Under the pieces are notes generated by a model. That model was not told the DNA's origin. It saw only the letters and a program-made list of their open reading frames with translations, and ran no database searches. A program made the translations under genes and the position numbers. 64,000 nucleotides of DNA, taken from assembly GCA_003141095.1 (NCBI GenBank), contig PLKM01000031.1:28020-92019 (forward strand). The letters are read 5' to 3'. The DNA comes from Acidimicrobiaceae bacterium. Lineage in GTDB: Bacteria > Actinomycetota > Acidimicrobiia > Acidimicrobiales > RAAP-2. Within the stretch, counting starts at the first letter, position 1, and the number at the start of each line of letters is the position of its first letter. Below are positions 32,810 to 41,246 of the stretch, in pieces.

Positions 32810-35197
32810 ATGCGACGCCCCTCACGCCTCTCAACGCTCACCCTGGTAGGACTCAGCATGACCATGGCCGCGTTCACCCTCGCGGTGACGCCAGCGCTCG
32901 CCAGCGAGCCCCGCGTCGTCGTCGCCGGGGTTTCGCCGGTCCCTTCCGCGGACAAGGTCGTCAACCGCGCGATCACCGCCTCCTTTGACGTCGTCTTACG
33001 CCAGCCCCACGAGGCCGCGCTCACGTCGTACATCGCGAGCCTCTCCGATACCGCCTCGCCCGACTACCACCACTACCTGACACCCGCCCAGTTCGCAAAG
33101 GATTTTGGCGCGACGGCCTCGTCGGTCTCCTCGGTGCGTTCCTATCTTTCCGGGTACGGCTTGAGGGTGGGGGGGCTGAGCAAGGGCCACGTCTTGTTGC
33201 ACGTCAAGGGTCTGACCACTGACATCGCTCGCGCCTTTGACGCTTCGGTCGAAACCGTTCGCACCAGTGACGGGGTCTTGGCGGCGCAGTTCACGGCGAA
33301 GGCGACGATTCCCTCTTCACTCGCGCGCGACGTCACGAGCGTCGACGGTCTCTCGACGGTGACGTCGCCGTCCACTCCGGCAATCGTTTCGCACGCCGCC
33401 TCGCGCTCGACGACCGCCCAGGCTTGCCCCTCGGCGGGCAGCGGCACCGGCACCACACCGAACTCGCTCGGTGGTTACACCGTCCAGCAGCAGGCGCAGC
33501 TCTACGGGCTCAGCACCGCCTACGCGAGCGGGGACACCGGCGTCGGCCAAACGATCGCCGTCTACGAGCTCGGCCAGTACGACCAGAGCGACTTGGGTGT
33601 CTTCTTCACGTGTTACGCACTGACCCCGTCGATCACGCCCATCACCGTCGACAGCGGCATTTCAGCGGGCTACAACGTAGGGTCCAGCGCTGAAGAAGCG
33701 ACGCTCGACGTCGAGGAGTCGGCGGCGCTGGCTCCGGGCGCGACCATCGACGTGTACGAGGGTCCAAACTCCGCGAACGGCCCGACCGACATCTACCAGC
33801 AGATCGCCGACAACAACACCGCGACGATCGTCACCACGTCGTGGGGCACGTGCGAAGGCGATCCGAGCGGCGACGCCACCGCCGAGCAGGCGATCTTTGA
33901 ACAGATGGCCGCCCAGGGCCAGACCGTGGTCGCGGCGGCGGGCGACAGCGGATCCTCGGACTGCGCCGCCAATTCCGACGGGTTCGCGCCCAAGAATTTG
34001 GCCGTTGACGACCCGGCCTCACAGCCCTTCGTGACGGGCGTCGGTGGTCTGAGCATCTCCAGCATCAGCCCCTTCGCCGAGACGGTCTGGAACGCGGGCA
34101 CGGGCAGCGGCGGTGCCGGCGGCGGCGGTGCATCGACGCTGTGGTCACGCCCCTCGTGGCAGAGCGCACCCGGGATCACCGCGGCTGACACCATGCGCAT
34201 GGTGCCGGACCTCTCGGTGATGGCCGATCCGAACACTGGCTTCATCGAGTACTTCACCGGCTCGGACGGTGGACTTTGTCACCGAACTTGCGGAGCTGGT
34301 TGGAGCAGCATTGGCGGAACGTCCATTGGCTCGCCGCTCGTCAGCTCGCTCGTCGCGGTCGCCGCGCAGTCGTGCGCGGTGAGCCGTCTCGGTTTCATCA
34401 ATCCGACGCTCTACTCCATGGCCACCGCCGGCGTCGGATTCAATGACGTCACGACCGGCAACAACGACCTCTACAACGCCGGCGGCTACGGCGCCGGCGT
34501 CGGCTACGACATGGCGTCGGGGCTCGGCAGCCCCGACGGCCCTGCCTTCATCGACGGTCTGTGCCCGGCGAAGCTGGATGCGGCCAAGAGCGCGTTCACG
34601 ACGTCGAGCCAGAGTCCACCGATCAATTCCCCCGCAACCATCACCGCCGTCTTGAGGAACTCGAGCTCCACGCCAGTTGCCAACGCGATGGTCGACCTGA
34701 GCGCAACGGCAGCCTCCGGCACGATCGTGATTGACGGCGACGCAAGCAGCACCACCAGCGCGGGCGCGGCGACGTACCAGGCCAACTCGAATTCGTCGGG
34801 CACGGCGAGTTTTACCGTGACCTCGAACACCGCGGGCCCCGTCGTCGTGACCATCACCTACGCGAGCGCAACCCTGTACACCACGACGTTGAACTTCACT
34901 GCAGCGGCATCGACAACGCGCGCACCGGGCAAACCCACCATCCGGAGCCTCCGGCCGTTGGCCGGCGGATTCAAGCTCGTGGTGGCCCCGCCAGCTTCGA
35001 ACGGCGGAAGCGCCATCACCCTGTATCAATACTCAATCAACTCGGGAAAGACGTGGTCCAACATCTCGAGAGCGGCCCGCAGCGTCACCGTGGGCCATCT
35101 GAGCAAGGTCCGCACGTACGTCGTCGTGGTGCGCGCACGAAACGTGGTGGGTACCGGAGCCACATCCGCGGCGTCGCGGGTGACGACACTTGCGTAG
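32810..35197 (+). CDS. Secreted S53 (sedolisin/kumamolisin-type) peptidase with C-terminal FN3-like domain
   Basis: Signal peptide, pro-kumamolisin region (YHHYLTPAQFAKDFG), EEATLDVEESAALAPGATIDVYEG, AAAGDSGSSD, SSIGGTSIGSPLVSSL, C-terminal APGKPTIRSLRPLAGGFKLVVAPPASNGGSAITLYQYSINSG. Confidence 0.93.
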   Translation: MRRPSRLSTLTLVGLSMTMAAFTLAVTPALASEPRVVVAGVSPVPSADKVVNRAITASFDVVLRQPHEAALTSYIASLSDTASPDYHHYLTPAQFAKDFGATASSVSSVRSYLSGYGLRVGGLSKGHVLLHVKGLTTDIARAFDASVETVRTSDGVLAAQFTAKATIPSSLARDVTSVDGLSTVTSPSTPAIVSHAASRSTTAQACPSAGSGTGTTPNSLGGYTVQQQAQLYGLSTAYASGDTGVGQTIAVYELGQYDQSDLGVFFTCYALTPSITPITVDSGISAGYNVGSSAEEATLDVEESAALAPGATIDVYEGPNSANGPTDIYQQIADNNTATIVTTSWGTCEGDPSGDATAEQAIFEQMAAQGQTVVAAAGDSGSSDCAANSDGFAPKNLAVDDPASQPFVTGVGGLSISSISPFAETVWNAGTGSGGAGGGGASTLWSRPSWQSAPGITAADTMRMVPDLSVMADPNTGFIEYFTGSDGGLCHRTCGAGWSSIGGTSIGSPLVSSLVAVAAQSCAVSRLGFINPTLYSMATAGVGFNDVTTGNNDLYNAGGYGAGVGYDMASGLGSPDGPAFIDGLCPAKLDAAKSAFTTSSQSPPINSPATITAVLRNSSSTPVANAMVDLSATAASGTIVIDGDASSTTSAGAATYQANSNSSGTASFTVTSNTAGPVVVTITYASATLYTTTLNFTAAASTTRAPGKPTIRSLRPLAGGFKLVVAPPASNGGSAITLYQYSINSGKTWSNISRAARSVTVGHLSKVRTYVVVVRARNVVGTGATSAASRVTTLA

Positions 35198-35314: not shown

Positions 35315-37378
35315 ATGCGCGTGAAGTTTCGACGAGCCGCATTGGTGGCGAACATAGTGTTGGTCGGATCGACTCTGCCGGTCGTCCTGCTTCCGGTCGC
35401 GACGCCGAACTCCGGCGCGGCGCTTCCCCTGTACCAGTTCGTGAACTCCGGCACCGGCCCGCTGCCGTGGAACGCGGTCTCCTTCGAGAGCGCAATCGAT
35501 AACACGAAGATGCTGGGCAGTCCCCACGCGGTGAGCCAGGTTGGTGAAGCCGCGCTGACCTATCGAATGGCCAACTCCCAAATTGGTCTCTACGTGGCGA
35601 ACGCCACCGGGGCTTCGACGTGGACCAACGTCTCGACGCTCGTCGATACACCCACCCCGGCGTCGGACCCCATTCCCTTTTTTGACCCGATGGGACTGCT
35701 GGACATCCTCTACGTGAGTACGTCGAATCACCTCATCTTGTTGTCGACCAACAGCGCCCGCGCTCCGAGGACCGACAAGATCGGCGAACCGGCGCCGTGG
35801 CATCCTTGGATTAGCACCGACCTGACGCTGGAGACCGGGGTCGGCGTGGCGACCGGCCTGCCCAGTGTGCACGTGAGCGGTTTCAACGGATTCATTGCTT
35901 TTCGATCGCTGACCGACGCCGCCGAAGTGATCCCTCTCAACTGGATACTCGGCCAACGTGTTCCTTCGCTGAGTAGCGGAGCCGTCAATGTCTCGAGCGT
36001 CACATCGGTGGGCCCGATATCCAACGATCCCGTAGCCCTGCCCGAAACCGAAGGCGCCTTCGCCGCGACGACCGCCGCGGGGAGTCTCGAGGTCTTCGCG
36101 AATACCGGCACGACCACCAGTACGTGGAGCGCACAGAATCTCACCTCGTTGACGTCAGCGTCCGCGAGCGTCGGTGCTCTGGCCGTCGCGAGCACCGCCG
36201 TCACCACCTACGTCGCCGCACTCAACGCCAGCGGTGGCGTCGAACTCTACGCCACGCCTGACTCGACCTTCACTCCCCTGATCGCCGCGGCGCACGCCGC
36301 GGCGCCCGCACCTTCGACGTGGACGGCCGTCGGCGTCACGGCGAGCGCCACCGGTGCCCCGCCCCTCGACGGCACGATTTACATGAACGCGTCGCCAACC
36401 CAGCTATCGATTGCGGGCCAGGCGACGAACTGGGGCGACCTCTTCGTCTTAACGAGCACGATCGGCACCACCACGTGGAGCGCCACTGACGTTTCGGCGA
36501 CCGGCGGCACCTCGGCTCGAACCGTAGGACCCGGCGTCACCGGGATGACGATTGGCTCAACCCTCGACCTCTTCGCCGCGGGCGTGAGCTCACCTCCGCC
36601 TCAAGGGGTGGGTCTCTACGCAATACCCTCGAAGGACTGGGGTACCGCCATCACCAACGGCTGGCCCATCATCAGCGGCACCGGTGGACTGGGCACGCGA
36701 AGCGCGCCCTGGGTCGGGTTCACCTCGACGACGAATGTCGTCACGTCACCGGACTTTCTCATGGGCCAGAGCATCTACAACGCCCACAAACGAGTGACCT
36801 GGCTCTCTTTCTGGACCGTGAGCGGGCCGCTCGCGAACGAGCAGCAAACCCCGGCCACGTACTACAGCCACGGTTTCGCCGCCGGCGCGTGGGTCGCCAC
36901 CCAGATCGATCAGTATCGCAGCCTCGGCGTCGGGCTGAAGCCGGACTGGGTGATCTTTGACCCCGAGGGCTATCCGGACAACCACTCGGGCCTCGACGCC
37001 CCGGGGGGCTCGTCCCAAGCCACCATGGCCCTCTACGCCACCCACTGGACGTCGATGCTGAGCGGCTGGTCCAGCGGCATATCCTCGGTCGATCCGTCAT
37101 TGAAGGCCGGCGTCTACGCCTCACAGTCCGAGTACCGAAACTACGGACTCGTCAATCAGGCCATGCCGGTGTTCATGGCCGTGGCGTTCGCCCAGGGAGG
37201 ACCGGTACCGGTCGCCGGAGCGAGCGGGAGCAACGTGCGCGGCTTCATCGCCTTTGACGCCAGTTGCACCCCAACGTCCACCCTGAAGTCCCAAGAGTCG
37301 ACGTTGAAAAGCCCGCCCTGGTCGGGTCAGTTCAATACGCTCCAGTTCAATGCCGGCGTCTACTGCCCGCCGGCGTAG
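35315..37378 (+). CDS. Large secreted repeat protein (propeller-like) with C-terminal glycoside-hydrolase-like (TIM-barrel type) region
   Basis: Signal peptide; recurrent T/S-W-S/T repeats (ASTWTNVST, TSTWSAQNLT, PSTWTAVGVT, TTTWSATDVS); C-terminal LKPDWVIFDPEGYP...AGVYASQSEYR. Confidence 0.7.
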   Translation: MRVKFRRAALVANIVLVGSTLPVVLLPVATPNSGAALPLYQFVNSGTGPLPWNAVSFESAIDNTKMLGSPHAVSQVGEAALTYRMANSQIGLYVANATGASTWTNVSTLVDTPTPASDPIPFFDPMGLLDILYVSTSNHLILLSTNSARAPRTDKIGEPAPWHPWISTDLTLETGVGVATGLPSVHVSGFNGFIAFRSLTDAAEVIPLNWILGQRVPSLSSGAVNVSSVTSVGPISNDPVALPETEGAFAATTAAGSLEVFANTGTTTSTWSAQNLTSLTSASASVGALAVASTAVTTYVAALNASGGVELYATPDSTFTPLIAAAHAAAPAPSTWTAVGVTASATGAPPLDGTIYMNASPTQLSIAGQATNWGDLFVLTSTIGTTTWSATDVSATGGTSARTVGPGVTGMTIGSTLDLFAAGVSSPPPQGVGLYAIPSKDWGTAITNGWPIISGTGGLGTRSAPWVGFTSTTNVVTSPDFLMGQSIYNAHKRVTWLSFWTVSGPLANEQQTPATYYSHGFAAGAWVATQIDQYRSLGVGLKPDWVIFDPEGYPDNHSGLDAPGGSSQATMALYATHWTSMLSGWSSGISSVDPSLKAGVYASQSEYRNYGLVNQAMPVFMAVAFAQGGPVPVAGASGSNVRGFIAFDASCTPTSTLKSQESTLKSPPWSGQFNTLQFNAGVYCPPA

Positions 37379-37393: not shown

Positions 37394-37627
37394 GTGAGTA
37401 ACTCCAACGAAACCTCCGGCGACAAGTCCCAAGACCTGCGATCACGCCTGAAGCAGTTCGCCCAGCCTCTCGTTGACTCGATCGATACCCGCCTGCGCGA
37501 CCAGGTTGATCATCGCGTGGACGAGCGGGTCGACGCTTCGCTCTCGGCTCGACTCTCGGTCATTGAACGCGCGATCGCCGACTTGGACCGAGAACTGCGC
37601 GAACTGAAGGACCGGCTCGACTCTTAG
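37394..37627 (+). CDS. Small charged coiled-coil protein
   Basis: 77 aa, heptad-like RLSVIERAIADLDRELRELKDRLDS; matching leaderless promoter. Confidence 0.65.
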   Translation: MSNSNETSGDKSQDLRSRLKQFAQPLVDSIDTRLRDQVDHRVDERVDASLSARLSVIERAIADLDRELRELKDRLDS

Positions 37628-37788: not shown

Positions 37789-38586
37789 ATGACCACCTTG
37801 ACAGATTCAACTCCGCGCTTTGTGGTCGACGCACTACGAGGCGAACGCCACCGCCGTCCGCTCGTGGACACCACGAGCGCCTCGGGTCTGCGCTCGATAC
37901 TCGAGGACGGCATCTTCGACGTCCTCGGCGGTGAACGGCTCGGCGCGCCGCTCGTCATTCGCGCATCATCGCTTCGCCAGCTCGGCCAAAGCACCGATAT
38001 CTCACTCTCCCCGTTCGCAAGAATTCGCGGAATCCTCGTGAATCAAATCCTTCGTCTGCTGAGCGTAGGTACCTCGGTGAAGTGTCCTTTCGACGACGCC
38101 CTTCGAGCGTGGCGTCTCGAAATCGGGTCCGGCGATCTGCTCGAGTACGTGGACCAGTTGGGCGGTGACGAACGGGCGCGACTCGAGACCGACGTGACCG
38201 CCCACTCGATCACCCTGGTGCGTTCACTCGGTCCGGTTCCCAGCCGCTGGCTTCCCCGCAGCGCCGTTCGCGCGACCCAGCAGCTGGGTGGGGGTGCGGT
38301 GATACTTCGCGACGTGATCGACCTCATGGTGGGCACCACCACCGGCGACGTCGCGAGCGTGGCCCTCTTTGACGTCACGACGTCGCCACTGGGTGAAGGC
38401 GCGGAACGCGCCATGCGCTATCACGCCCTCGTCCAGACTCTTCGAACGTCGCTCGTACCTCTTCGCACGTCAGCGTTCTCCACGGCCACCGGGGAGATGT
38501 GGTCGCTCGACGTCGACACCGAACTACTGGTGCGCAGTGCCCGCGAGGTTCTGGCGGCGCTCGAACTTCAACGAAGCGCATCATGA
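37789..38586 (+). CDS. Conserved-looking protein of unknown function
   Basis: 265 aa, codon-biased ORF, no signal peptide; ATGA overlap with the next gene; possible degenerate PD-(D/E)XK-like C-terminus. Confidence 0.75.
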   Translation: MTTLTDSTPRFVVDALRGERHRRPLVDTTSASGLRSILEDGIFDVLGGERLGAPLVIRASSLRQLGQSTDISLSPFARIRGILVNQILRLLSVGTSVKCPFDDALRAWRLEIGSGDLLEYVDQLGGDERARLETDVTAHSITLVRSLGPVPSRWLPRSAVRATQQLGGGAVILRDVIDLMVGTTTGDVASVALFDVTTSPLGEGAERAMRYHALVQTLRTSLVPLRTSAFSTATGEMWSLDVDTELLVRSAREVLAALELQRSAS

Positions 38587-39389
38587 GCGCCCTTCTTCAT
38601 CGCCGCTTCACGCGAAGCGATCTCAACGCGCTGATCGAAGATGCGCCCGCGACTCCGGTGACCCTCACCGACGATCATCGCCGCTCTCTCAGCGCGCGCT
38701 TTCGCGCGGTGCCGGGCAGCGAGCACCGTCGCCTCGACGCCTGGGCTGTCGAGCAGGCCGGGAGGGCCAGCCGCGCCTTTCGTTGGTCCCCGTCGACCGC
38801 CCGGCGAGTTCTCGGCGGCGGCGCCCTTCGCCGGATCGCTGTTCGTCCCACGCTCTCCATTGGCGAAGCCGTCAGCGACGAGATCACCGATCAACTCCTT
38901 CGAGCCGCCTCGGGCTACACCCGCGGGGGTTCTCTCAGCTCCTGGCTCGCGAGTACAACCGTGCCCGAGCTCGGACTCATCACCGCCGAAGCCCTCAACT
39001 GGGCCACCCTGGTGGCGGAGACCGCCGAGGGGATCGAGTGTGACTGGCGCGTTGCGCCCAGTGACGCGTTCTATGACGTGGCGAGCGCGAGGACAACGCT
39101 GCGGGGGCGCCGTGACCTCATGGTTGCCCGTGATGACCTTCGGGTGATAGTCCGCGTTCGAGCGGGCACTCCGGGTAAAAGCGCTGGTCCGGGGCTACGC
39201 AGTGACCTCACCATCGAGACGTTGGTCCATCCGCAGGGCCTAGCCCCGGCTCGATTCGTTGGGATATGGCCCGACGCCGGCCTGATGCTCAGCGTTGACG
39301 GTACTATGGGCGACCTTCGATGCGGAGCACGCGATCTGGTGCGCACCGCTGTCGCCCAGCACCGTTTTCGTGCTTTAATAGCGGCTTAG
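38583..39389 (+). CDS. Protein of unknown function, partner of preceding gene
   Basis: ORF trimmed to ATG 38583 (MSALLHRRFTRSDLNAL...); LRGRRDLMVARDDLRVIVRVRAG region. Confidence 0.75.
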   Translation: MSALLHRRFTRSDLNALIEDAPATPVTLTDDHRRSLSARFRAVPGSEHRRLDAWAVEQAGRASRAFRWSPSTARRVLGGGALRRIAVRPTLSIGEAVSDEITDQLLRAASGYTRGGSLSSWLASTTVPELGLITAEALNWATLVAETAEGIECDWRVAPSDAFYDVASARTTLRGRRDLMVARDDLRVIVRVRAGTPGKSAGPGLRSDLTIETLVHPQGLAPARFVGIWPDAGLMLSVDGTMGDLRCGARDLVRTAVAQHRFRALIAA

Positions 39390-39428: not shown

Positions 39429-41246
39429 ATGACACTACGTACTTCCCTTCGAAATATCGCTATCATCGCGCACGTTGACCACGGAAAAACCACCCTGGTC
39501 GACAAAATGCTGCGCCAAACCGGCTCCTTCACCGCCCACGAGGAAATGACCGACCGCGTTATGGACTCCGGTGACCTCGAGCGCGAAAAGGGCATCACGA
39601 TCCTCGCGAAGAACACCGCCGTGAAGTGGAACGACCTCACGATCAACATCATCGACACGCCTGGTCACGCCGACTTTGGTGGCGAGGTTGAGCGCGGTTT
39701 GTCCATGGTGGACGCCGTCATCCTGCTCGTCGACGCCGCCGAGGGCCCCTTGCCCCAAACCCGTTTCGTCCTTCGCAAGACCCTCGAAAAGCGCCTTCCC
39801 GTCGTGCTGGTCATCAACAAGGTCGACCGCCCCGACGCACGAATCGCTGAAGTCGTCGAGGAGGTGGAGAACCTGTTCCTCGACCTCGACGCCGACGAGC
39901 ACCAGATCTCGTTCCCGATCCTCTACGCGAGCGCCCGCCAGGGCTGGGCCTCGAAGAACCCCGAGGACACCGGCGGCGACCTCACCCCGCTCTTCGAGAC
40001 AATCGCCAACTACGTGCCGGCCCCCGAGTACGAGGAGGGCCACGGCCTGCAGGCGCTCGTCTGCAACCTCGACGCCTCGCCGTACCTCGGCCGGCTCGCC
40101 CTGTGCCGCGTCATCAACGGCACGCTCGAGCGCGGCCAGCGCGTCGCGTGGTGCCGCATCGACGGCACCATCGAGCACGCCAAGATCACTGAACTCTTCA
40201 TCACCGAGGCGCTCGAGCGCATCCCCGCCCAGAGCGCCGGACCCGGCGACATCGTGGCGGTCGCGGGCTTCGAGGACATCTTCATCGGCGAGACCCTCGC
40301 GGACCCGGAGAACCCCATCGCCCTCGAACCGCTGCACGTCGACGAGCCCAGCCTCTCGATGACCATCGGCATCAACACCTCGCCCCTCGCCGGCACCGAA
40401 GGCAAGTTGCTCACCGCACGCATGGTGAAGGACCGCCTCGACAAGGAACTCGTCGGCAACGTGTCACTGCGCGTGCTGCCCACCGAACGCCCCGACGCCT
40501 GGGAGGTTCAGGGACGAGGCGAGCTCCAACTCGCGATCCTCATCGAGACCATGCGCCGCGAGGGATTCGAACTCACCGTGGGCAAGCCCCAAGTCGTCAC
40601 CAGGATGGTCGATGGCAAGCTGCACGAGCCGCTCGAGCACGTCACGATCGACGTCCACGAGGAGTTCGTCGGCGCGGTCACGACGCTGCTCGCCACTCGC
40701 AAGGGCACGATGATCGACATGGTCAACCACGGCACCGGCTGGGTCCGCCTCGAATGGCGCATCCCCGCGAGAGGACTGGTCGGCATCCGCACCGAGTTCA
40801 TGACCGAGACCCGTGGCGGCGGCATGATGCACACCAACTTCGACGGCTACGCCCCCTGGTTCGGTGACATCCGCCTGCGCCAAAACGGCGTGCTCGTCGC
40901 GGACCGACGCGGCTACACCACGGCGAACGCCTTGATCGATCTGGAGAGCCGCGGCACGATGTTCGTCGGACCGGGCACCGAGGTTTTCGAGGGAATGATC
41001 GTTGGTGAGAACTCGCGTTCCGAAGAGATGAACGTGAACCCCACCAAAGAGAAGAAGCTCACCAACATGCGAGCGTCCGGCAGCGACCACACCGAGCGCA
41101 TCACGCCCGCGACGATCCTGTCGCTCGAGCAGGCGCTCGAGTTCATCGCCGACGACGAGGCCGTCGAGGTCACGCCGAAGTCAGTTCGACTGCGCAAGAT
41201 GATCCTCGACCAGCCGTCGCGCGCGCGCTCCCGCAAAAAGGGCTGA
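39429..41246 (+). CDS. typA: Translational GTPase TypA/BipA
   Basis: NIAIIAHVDHGKTTLVDKMLRQTG, DTPGHADFGGEVERGLSMVD, NKVDRPDAR, TRGGGMMHTNFDGYAPWFGDI. Confidence 0.97.
   Translation: MTLRTSLRNIAIIAHVDHGKTTLVDKMLRQTGSFTAHEEMTDRVMDSGDLEREKGITILAKNTAVKWNDLTINIIDTPGHADFGGEVERGLSMVDAVILLVDAAEGPLPQTRFVLRKTLEKRLPVVLVINKVDRPDARIAEVVEEVENLFLDLDADEHQISFPILYASARQGWASKNPEDTGGDLTPLFETIANYVPAPEYEEGHGLQALVCNLDASPYLGRLALCRVINGTLERGQRVAWCRIDGTIEHAKITELFITEALERIPAQSAGPGDIVAVAGFEDIFIGETLADPENPIALEPLHVDEPSLSMTIGINTSPLAGTEGKLLTARMVKDRLDKELVGNVSLRVLPTERPDAWEVQGRGELQLAILIETMRREGFELTVGKPQVVTRMVDGKLHEPLEHVTIDVHEEFVGAVTTLLATRKGTMIDMVNHGTGWVRLEWRIPARGLVGIRTEFMTETRGGGMMHTNFDGYAPWFGDIRLRQNGVLVADRRGYTTANALIDLESRGTMFVGPGTEVFEGMIVGENSRSEEMNVNPTKEKKLTNMRASGSDHTERITPATILSLEQALEFIADDEAVEVTPKSVRLRKMILDQPSRARSRKKG

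Follow-up and report, generated by a model that had tools for sequence, protein, structure and literature searches.

The C-terminal nuclease-like domain of RecC forms a hoop for single-stranded DNA (Rigden 2005, PMC1185551), and TP1 of the virus TTV1 is a Cas4 nuclease that has lost some catalytic residues and been re-used as a nucleocapsid protein (Krupovic 2015, PMC4625639). A survey of Cas4 proteins, for its part, took the conserved motifs as an indication that every Cas4 is an active nuclease (PMC5704561). Here we analysed two overlapping genes, P1 and P2, in a stretch of 64,000 nucleotides from an Acidimicrobiaceae bacterium (assembly GCA_003141095.1, contig PLKM01000031.1, positions 28,020 to 92,019; hereafter the window). 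On balance, we favour reading the pair as an inactive, paired, nucleic-acid-binding relative of Cas4/RecB nucleases that is conserved across a bacterial family. In this reading, a tandem duplication gave rise to the pair, and the active site was then lost several times independently.

The RecC domain has a related subunit at its side and directs the path of single-stranded DNA (PMC1185551). The window pair likewise presents a nuclease-like domain without catalytic residues, encoded next to a homologous subunit, a comparison that concerns how the proteins work and not homology to RecC. However, RecC belongs to a large helicase assembly in which its partner, RecB, is active, whereas P1 and P2 are small stand-alone proteins that both lack the catalytic lysine. 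AddAB and AdnAB are likewise made of two subunits that are homologous and have RecB-type nuclease domains, but they share with RecBCD a UvrD-type helicase domain, and a Pfam scan of P1 and P2 gave no helicase match.

The best fold matches of both protein models are Cas4 and solo-Cas4 proteins, AddB-type iron-sulphur nucleases and the Argonaute-associated ACE1 (PDB 9iac, 9iab). Single-gene homologues of the pair resemble the Cas4/AddB type in carrying D, (D/E)xK, Y and a 1+3 cysteine pattern; the window proteins differ in forming a tandem pair and in lacking the K, H, Y and four cysteines. TTV1 TP1 is a structural protein of a virus and derives from a split gene, unlike P1 and P2, a duplicated cellular pair under selection throughout its family. 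A preliminary description, drawn from the window's letters and open reading frames, had called the pair an undescribed protein system; this stands only in the sense that neither protein matches a Pfam model, that P1 has no NCBIfam match, and that we found no paper on the pair in open-access full text.

P1 and P2 are genuine, related genes that are inherited together

P1 orthologues were recovered from 139 of 150 genomes and 20 of 21 genera of the family by a family search, and P2 orthologues from 128 of 150 genomes and 21 of 21 genera by a single-sequence search; the searched genomes are partly incomplete, and an absent gene may reflect an assembly gap. The public relatives are mostly Acidimicrobiaceae metagenome-assembled genomes, several of which bear sample names like bog, fen and palsa. 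In a profile-based check of 40 sampled family loci, P2 adjoined P1 at 38, and at the other 2 the genes were fused. The fusions come from two assemblies of genus g21 (L062:3189-5369, 726 amino acids [aa]; L064:2596-5142, 848 aa; lengths counted from the first start codon of the open frame).

Ratios of nonsynonymous to synonymous substitution (dN/dS, Nei-Gojobori) among relatives were 0.14-0.31 for P1 and 0.08-0.28 for P2; synonymous distances were often near saturation, and close pairs agreed. Conserved positions include R89, W154, R157 and G182 in P1, and F66, W68, R75 and W229 in P2. Because of their family-wide presence, their adjacency or fusion and their low dN/dS, P1 and P2 are genuine genes under purifying selection and not chance open reading frames. 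One genome of the window genus (G122) holds two P1-P2 copies, on contigs C65 and C32, in an assembly that may be mixed.

The two proteins are homologous. Their profiles aligned over the whole length (253 columns, probability 98.3, E 2e-14), and outgroup single-gene homologues were matched by the P1 and P2 profiles alike. A tree of 123 sequences, a quick tree built without bootstrap, resolved P1 as one clade and P2 as another (Shimodaira-Hasegawa-like approximate likelihood ratio test 99 and 97), with the single-gene homologues apart. The preliminary description had seen much of this: the coupled frames lie exactly as it described, sharing ATGA, the C-terminal blocks that it quoted occur verbatim in both proteins, and its view that the two are built alike is borne out by the profile alignment. 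Co-occurrence, which it had set as a test, was found family-wide. The arginine-rich N-termini that it pointed out are real but unremarkable: each protein has 6 Arg among its 40 N-terminal residues.

The fusion, the frame overlap and the opposite charges (isoelectric points of 6.0 for P1 versus 10.7 for P2) together argue for a complex. With the co-occurrence of the two genes, these features make it quite likely that P1 and P2 form a heterodimer.

Fold and superfamily

Scanned alone, the window P1 and P2 matched nothing in Pfam even at E 10, whereas distant orthologues of P1 did match. PDDEXK_1 was detected at E values up to 1 in 6 of 50 P1 orthologues, and when ten orthologues were scanned singly, four (L046, L048, L067 and L074) exceeded the curated cut-off. 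Orthologues that match PDDEXK_1 have, for example, VDLLIGAPSRGRASVEVIDVKSG, of which the window counterpart is IDLMVGTTTGDVASVALFDVTTS. The single-gene outgroup homologues matched the same model above its cut-off (1e-8 to 7e-13). An NCBIfam scan of the P1 family gave weak, scattered matches, the best of which (E 0.004) include Cas4. Sequence searches of PDB returned chance matches alone for the P1 profile (such as UNC-45 and Rop) and no match for the P2 profile.

AlphaFold models, built from alignments of 12 close sequences, reached a predicted local distance difference test score of 81.9 for P1 and 75.0 for P2, with predicted template modelling (TM) scores of 0.80 and 0.76. Foldseek placed the Cas4-family ACE1 first for both models. 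For P1 this match was strong (E 4.5e-6, probability 1.00) and was accompanied by SSO0001, Dna2 and AdnAB; for P2 it was weaker (E 4.8e-3, probability 0.99) and mixed with low-probability HincII matches. Overall, both models match the Cas4/Dna2/AddAB/AdnAB nucleases. The pair is almost certainly of PD-(D/E)XK ancestry, as the preliminary description had suggested from a possible degenerate core; fold, homology and motif loss are shown by computation.

Stepwise loss of the active site

The P1 profile detects homologues both in the order (89 of 148 genomes) and in a phylum sample (50 of 247 genomes). They are mostly single genes encoding Cas4/RecB-like proteins of ~320 aa with the motifs GTVAHKAIEL, GKVDLtlG, vviDLKTG and LRFYALLETL and four invariant cysteines, one N-terminal and three C-terminal. 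Among 54 such proteins, D, D/E and K were each present in 54, H in 53, and the CxxC tail in 54. Locus frames were called mechanically, so that the N-terminus or tail of some distant members is uncertain, a caveat for the CxxC tail counts in P1 of other genera. The genes beside these homologues vary (Ppx/GppA, DUF501, GNAT, enoyl-CoA hydratase, FtsH-like and others) and indicate no pathway.

The related families f9, f43, f45 and, more weakly, f20 carry the tandem pair, with P2 beside P1. In these pairs P1 has D...(D/E)xK in 8 of 8 cases, and P2 lacks the acid at the second position. Since a related-family P1 with the full motif adjoins an inactive-looking P2, the pair probably began as a heterodimer of one active and one inactive subunit.

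In the motif census, none of 79 P2 proteins carries an acid at position 195. Within the window family the cysteines disappear, and the P1 lysine is kept in 10 of 37 proteins outside the window genus and in 0 of 35 within it, where 34 of 35 have Thr instead; both P1 acids, D178 and D195, are present in 35 of 35. In a tree built without the lysine column itself, parsimony gave 7 changes in lysine state, and well-supported branches force at least 3 losses. The motif of an active nuclease, D...(D/E)xK, is accordingly absent from the window pair, which reads D...DVT in P1 and D...RVR in P2, precisely at the site where the preliminary description had placed the degeneration. Likewise, the four cysteines that make up the Cas4/AddB iron-sulphur set are gone from both window proteins, and H and Y have also been lost in the window lineage.

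These losses suggest that the window pair is very probably without catalysis. One alternative is that it still cuts with the help of metal ions, P1 providing an atypical D...DxT active site and P2 binding the substrate. The invariance of the two P1 acids in the genus and the near-invariance of T197 speak for such an enzyme, as do the related families in which an intact P1 motif stands beside an inactive-looking P2. Nevertheless, the lysine is universal in the single-gene homologues and has been lost here along with H, Y and the cysteines, and other genera of the family have replaced both the P1 acid and the lysine with varied residues, a sign that loss of catalysis is tolerated. We therefore regard this alternative as unlikely. 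A migrated catalytic lysine is also unlikely: each protein contains a single lysine, and that of P1 (K98) is not conserved among close relatives.

Genomic neighbourhood

The positions of the pair, its motif sites and its neighbours are given in Table 1. The typA gene lies directly downstream of the pair in most family loci, including lineages that have lost the Lhr neighbour. This arrangement speaks for a second alternative, in which TypA and the pair would share RNA or the ribosome as their target. However, several genera (such as g8, g13 and g15) keep the pair without typA alongside, DNA is the substrate of the nearest relatives by structure, and adjacency to a housekeeping gene may be mere frozen gene order; a role with TypA thus appears improbable.

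Table 1. Features of the P1-P2 locus, in window positions.
Feature	Position	Strand	Description
P1	37789..38586	+	ATG 37789, stop 38586; 265 aa; degenerate PD-(D/E)XK / PDDEXK_1-like domain at residues ~75-260; putative pseudo-nuclease subunit 1
P2	38583..39389	+	ATG 38583, stop 39389; 268 aa; more strongly degenerate copy; putative pseudo-nuclease subunit 2
P1 Asp178	38320..38322	+	First catalytic Asp of the superfamily; present in 35/35 window-genus proteins
P1 D195-V196-T197	38371..38379	+	Degenerate (D/E)xK; Thr at the site of the Lys of active homologues
P2 Asp178	39114..39116	+	Counterpart of the first catalytic Asp
P2 R191-V192-R193	39153..39161	+	Occupies the (D/E)xK site; of the two motif positions, one is Arg in 34/34 and the other in 33/34 proteins of the genus
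typA/bipA	39429..41246	+	39 bp downstream of P2, same strand; context gene, outside the pair
Small charged protein	37394-37627		Just upstream of P1; 77 aa, predicted
Secreted protein	35315-37378		Upstream; 687 aa, predicted
Pro-kumamolisin-type peptidase	32810-35197		Adjoins the secreted-protein gene

Relatives often carry a DNA-repair helicase gene, Lhr, upstream and head-to-head with P1 (for example L046, L047, L077 and L081), in ~41 of 55 Lhr-bearing family genomes by hand count. This arrangement is what points to a DNA repair context; between that and RNA or translation, the choice is evenly poised. A general role with Lhr was rejected, and the link is a lead only. None of the annotated neighbours was recognised as a CRISPR or Argonaute gene.

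Upstream of the pair, the predicted secreted protein has no Pfam match, and its gene is conserved at this place within the window genus as well as in others, g7 and g14 among them. The small protein next to P1 is highly charged and probably helical, and it is conserved among relatives at 37-74% identity.

Elsewhere in the window genome, L149:1471-2439 encodes an intact stand-alone RecB-like nuclease with GILDRLD, IVDYKTG (containing DYKTG), a CRFC tail and clustered cysteines, and L150 contains a frame of 1119 aa that ends in PDDEXK_1. The pair is therefore not the only protein of this kind in the genome.

Discussion

We propose that the ancestor of the pair was a stand-alone iron-sulphur nuclease gene of the Cas4/RecB type, with a PD-(D/E)XK fold, and that its tandem duplication would have produced P1 and P2. 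The active site of P2 would have been lost at once and that of P1 later, leading in the window lineage to two copies devoid of catalytic lysine and of all four cysteines, with arginines in P2 at the sites of a metal-binding acid and of the lysine. In the resulting P1-P2 heterodimer, the former substrate cleft would most likely bind nucleic acid, single-stranded or branched, and leave it uncut, in the manner of the RecC domain. By binding, or as a scaffold, the pair could contribute to DNA repair or to the upkeep of replication forks. Nucleic-acid binding itself, by analogy with RecC, is likely; the repair context is the least certain clause of this explanation. The preliminary description had already put forward an inactive, heterodimeric, nucleic-acid-binding pair as a possibility.

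Several observations weigh against this proposal. The retention of D178 and D195 throughout the window genus makes a residual metal site, or some activity, possible. The constant downstream neighbour, typA, encodes a translation GTPase and not a repair protein. No Lhr gene was found in the window genome (assembly 93% complete), and the pair is nonetheless kept; an Lhr-dependent role is therefore not general. Finally, the TM-scores of the models against solved structures fall below 0.5 (0.46 and 0.39), with models built from few and close sequences, and the fold claim therefore leans mainly on the sequence homology of P1 and, for P2, on its homology to P1.

The remaining explanations fare worse. 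Functionless decay of nuclease remnants would fit the stepwise loss of catalytic residues and cysteines, but the frames are intact family-wide, positions in both P1 and P2 are conserved, and dN/dS, which indicates purifying selection, rules decay without function out; we consider it highly improbable. An unrelated fold with a chance resemblance to PD-(D/E)XK, to which the lack of a Pfam match for the window proteins and the chance PDB sequence matches might point, is more improbable still, and for P1 it is refuted by homologues above the PDDEXK_1 cut-off together with the Cas4/Dna2/AddAB/AdnAB fold matches.

Inactivated nucleases with a new job have been known as single cases, namely RecC and TTV1 TP1. 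In the lineages surveyed here, living genomes display each step: an intact single enzyme with iron-sulphur cysteines, an active/inactive pair, a pair without the cysteines, a pair without the lysine, and a fused pair. Through these intermediates, the transition from enzyme to binding subunit becomes directly testable, and an annotation is gained for two gene families without a match among the current Pfam models.
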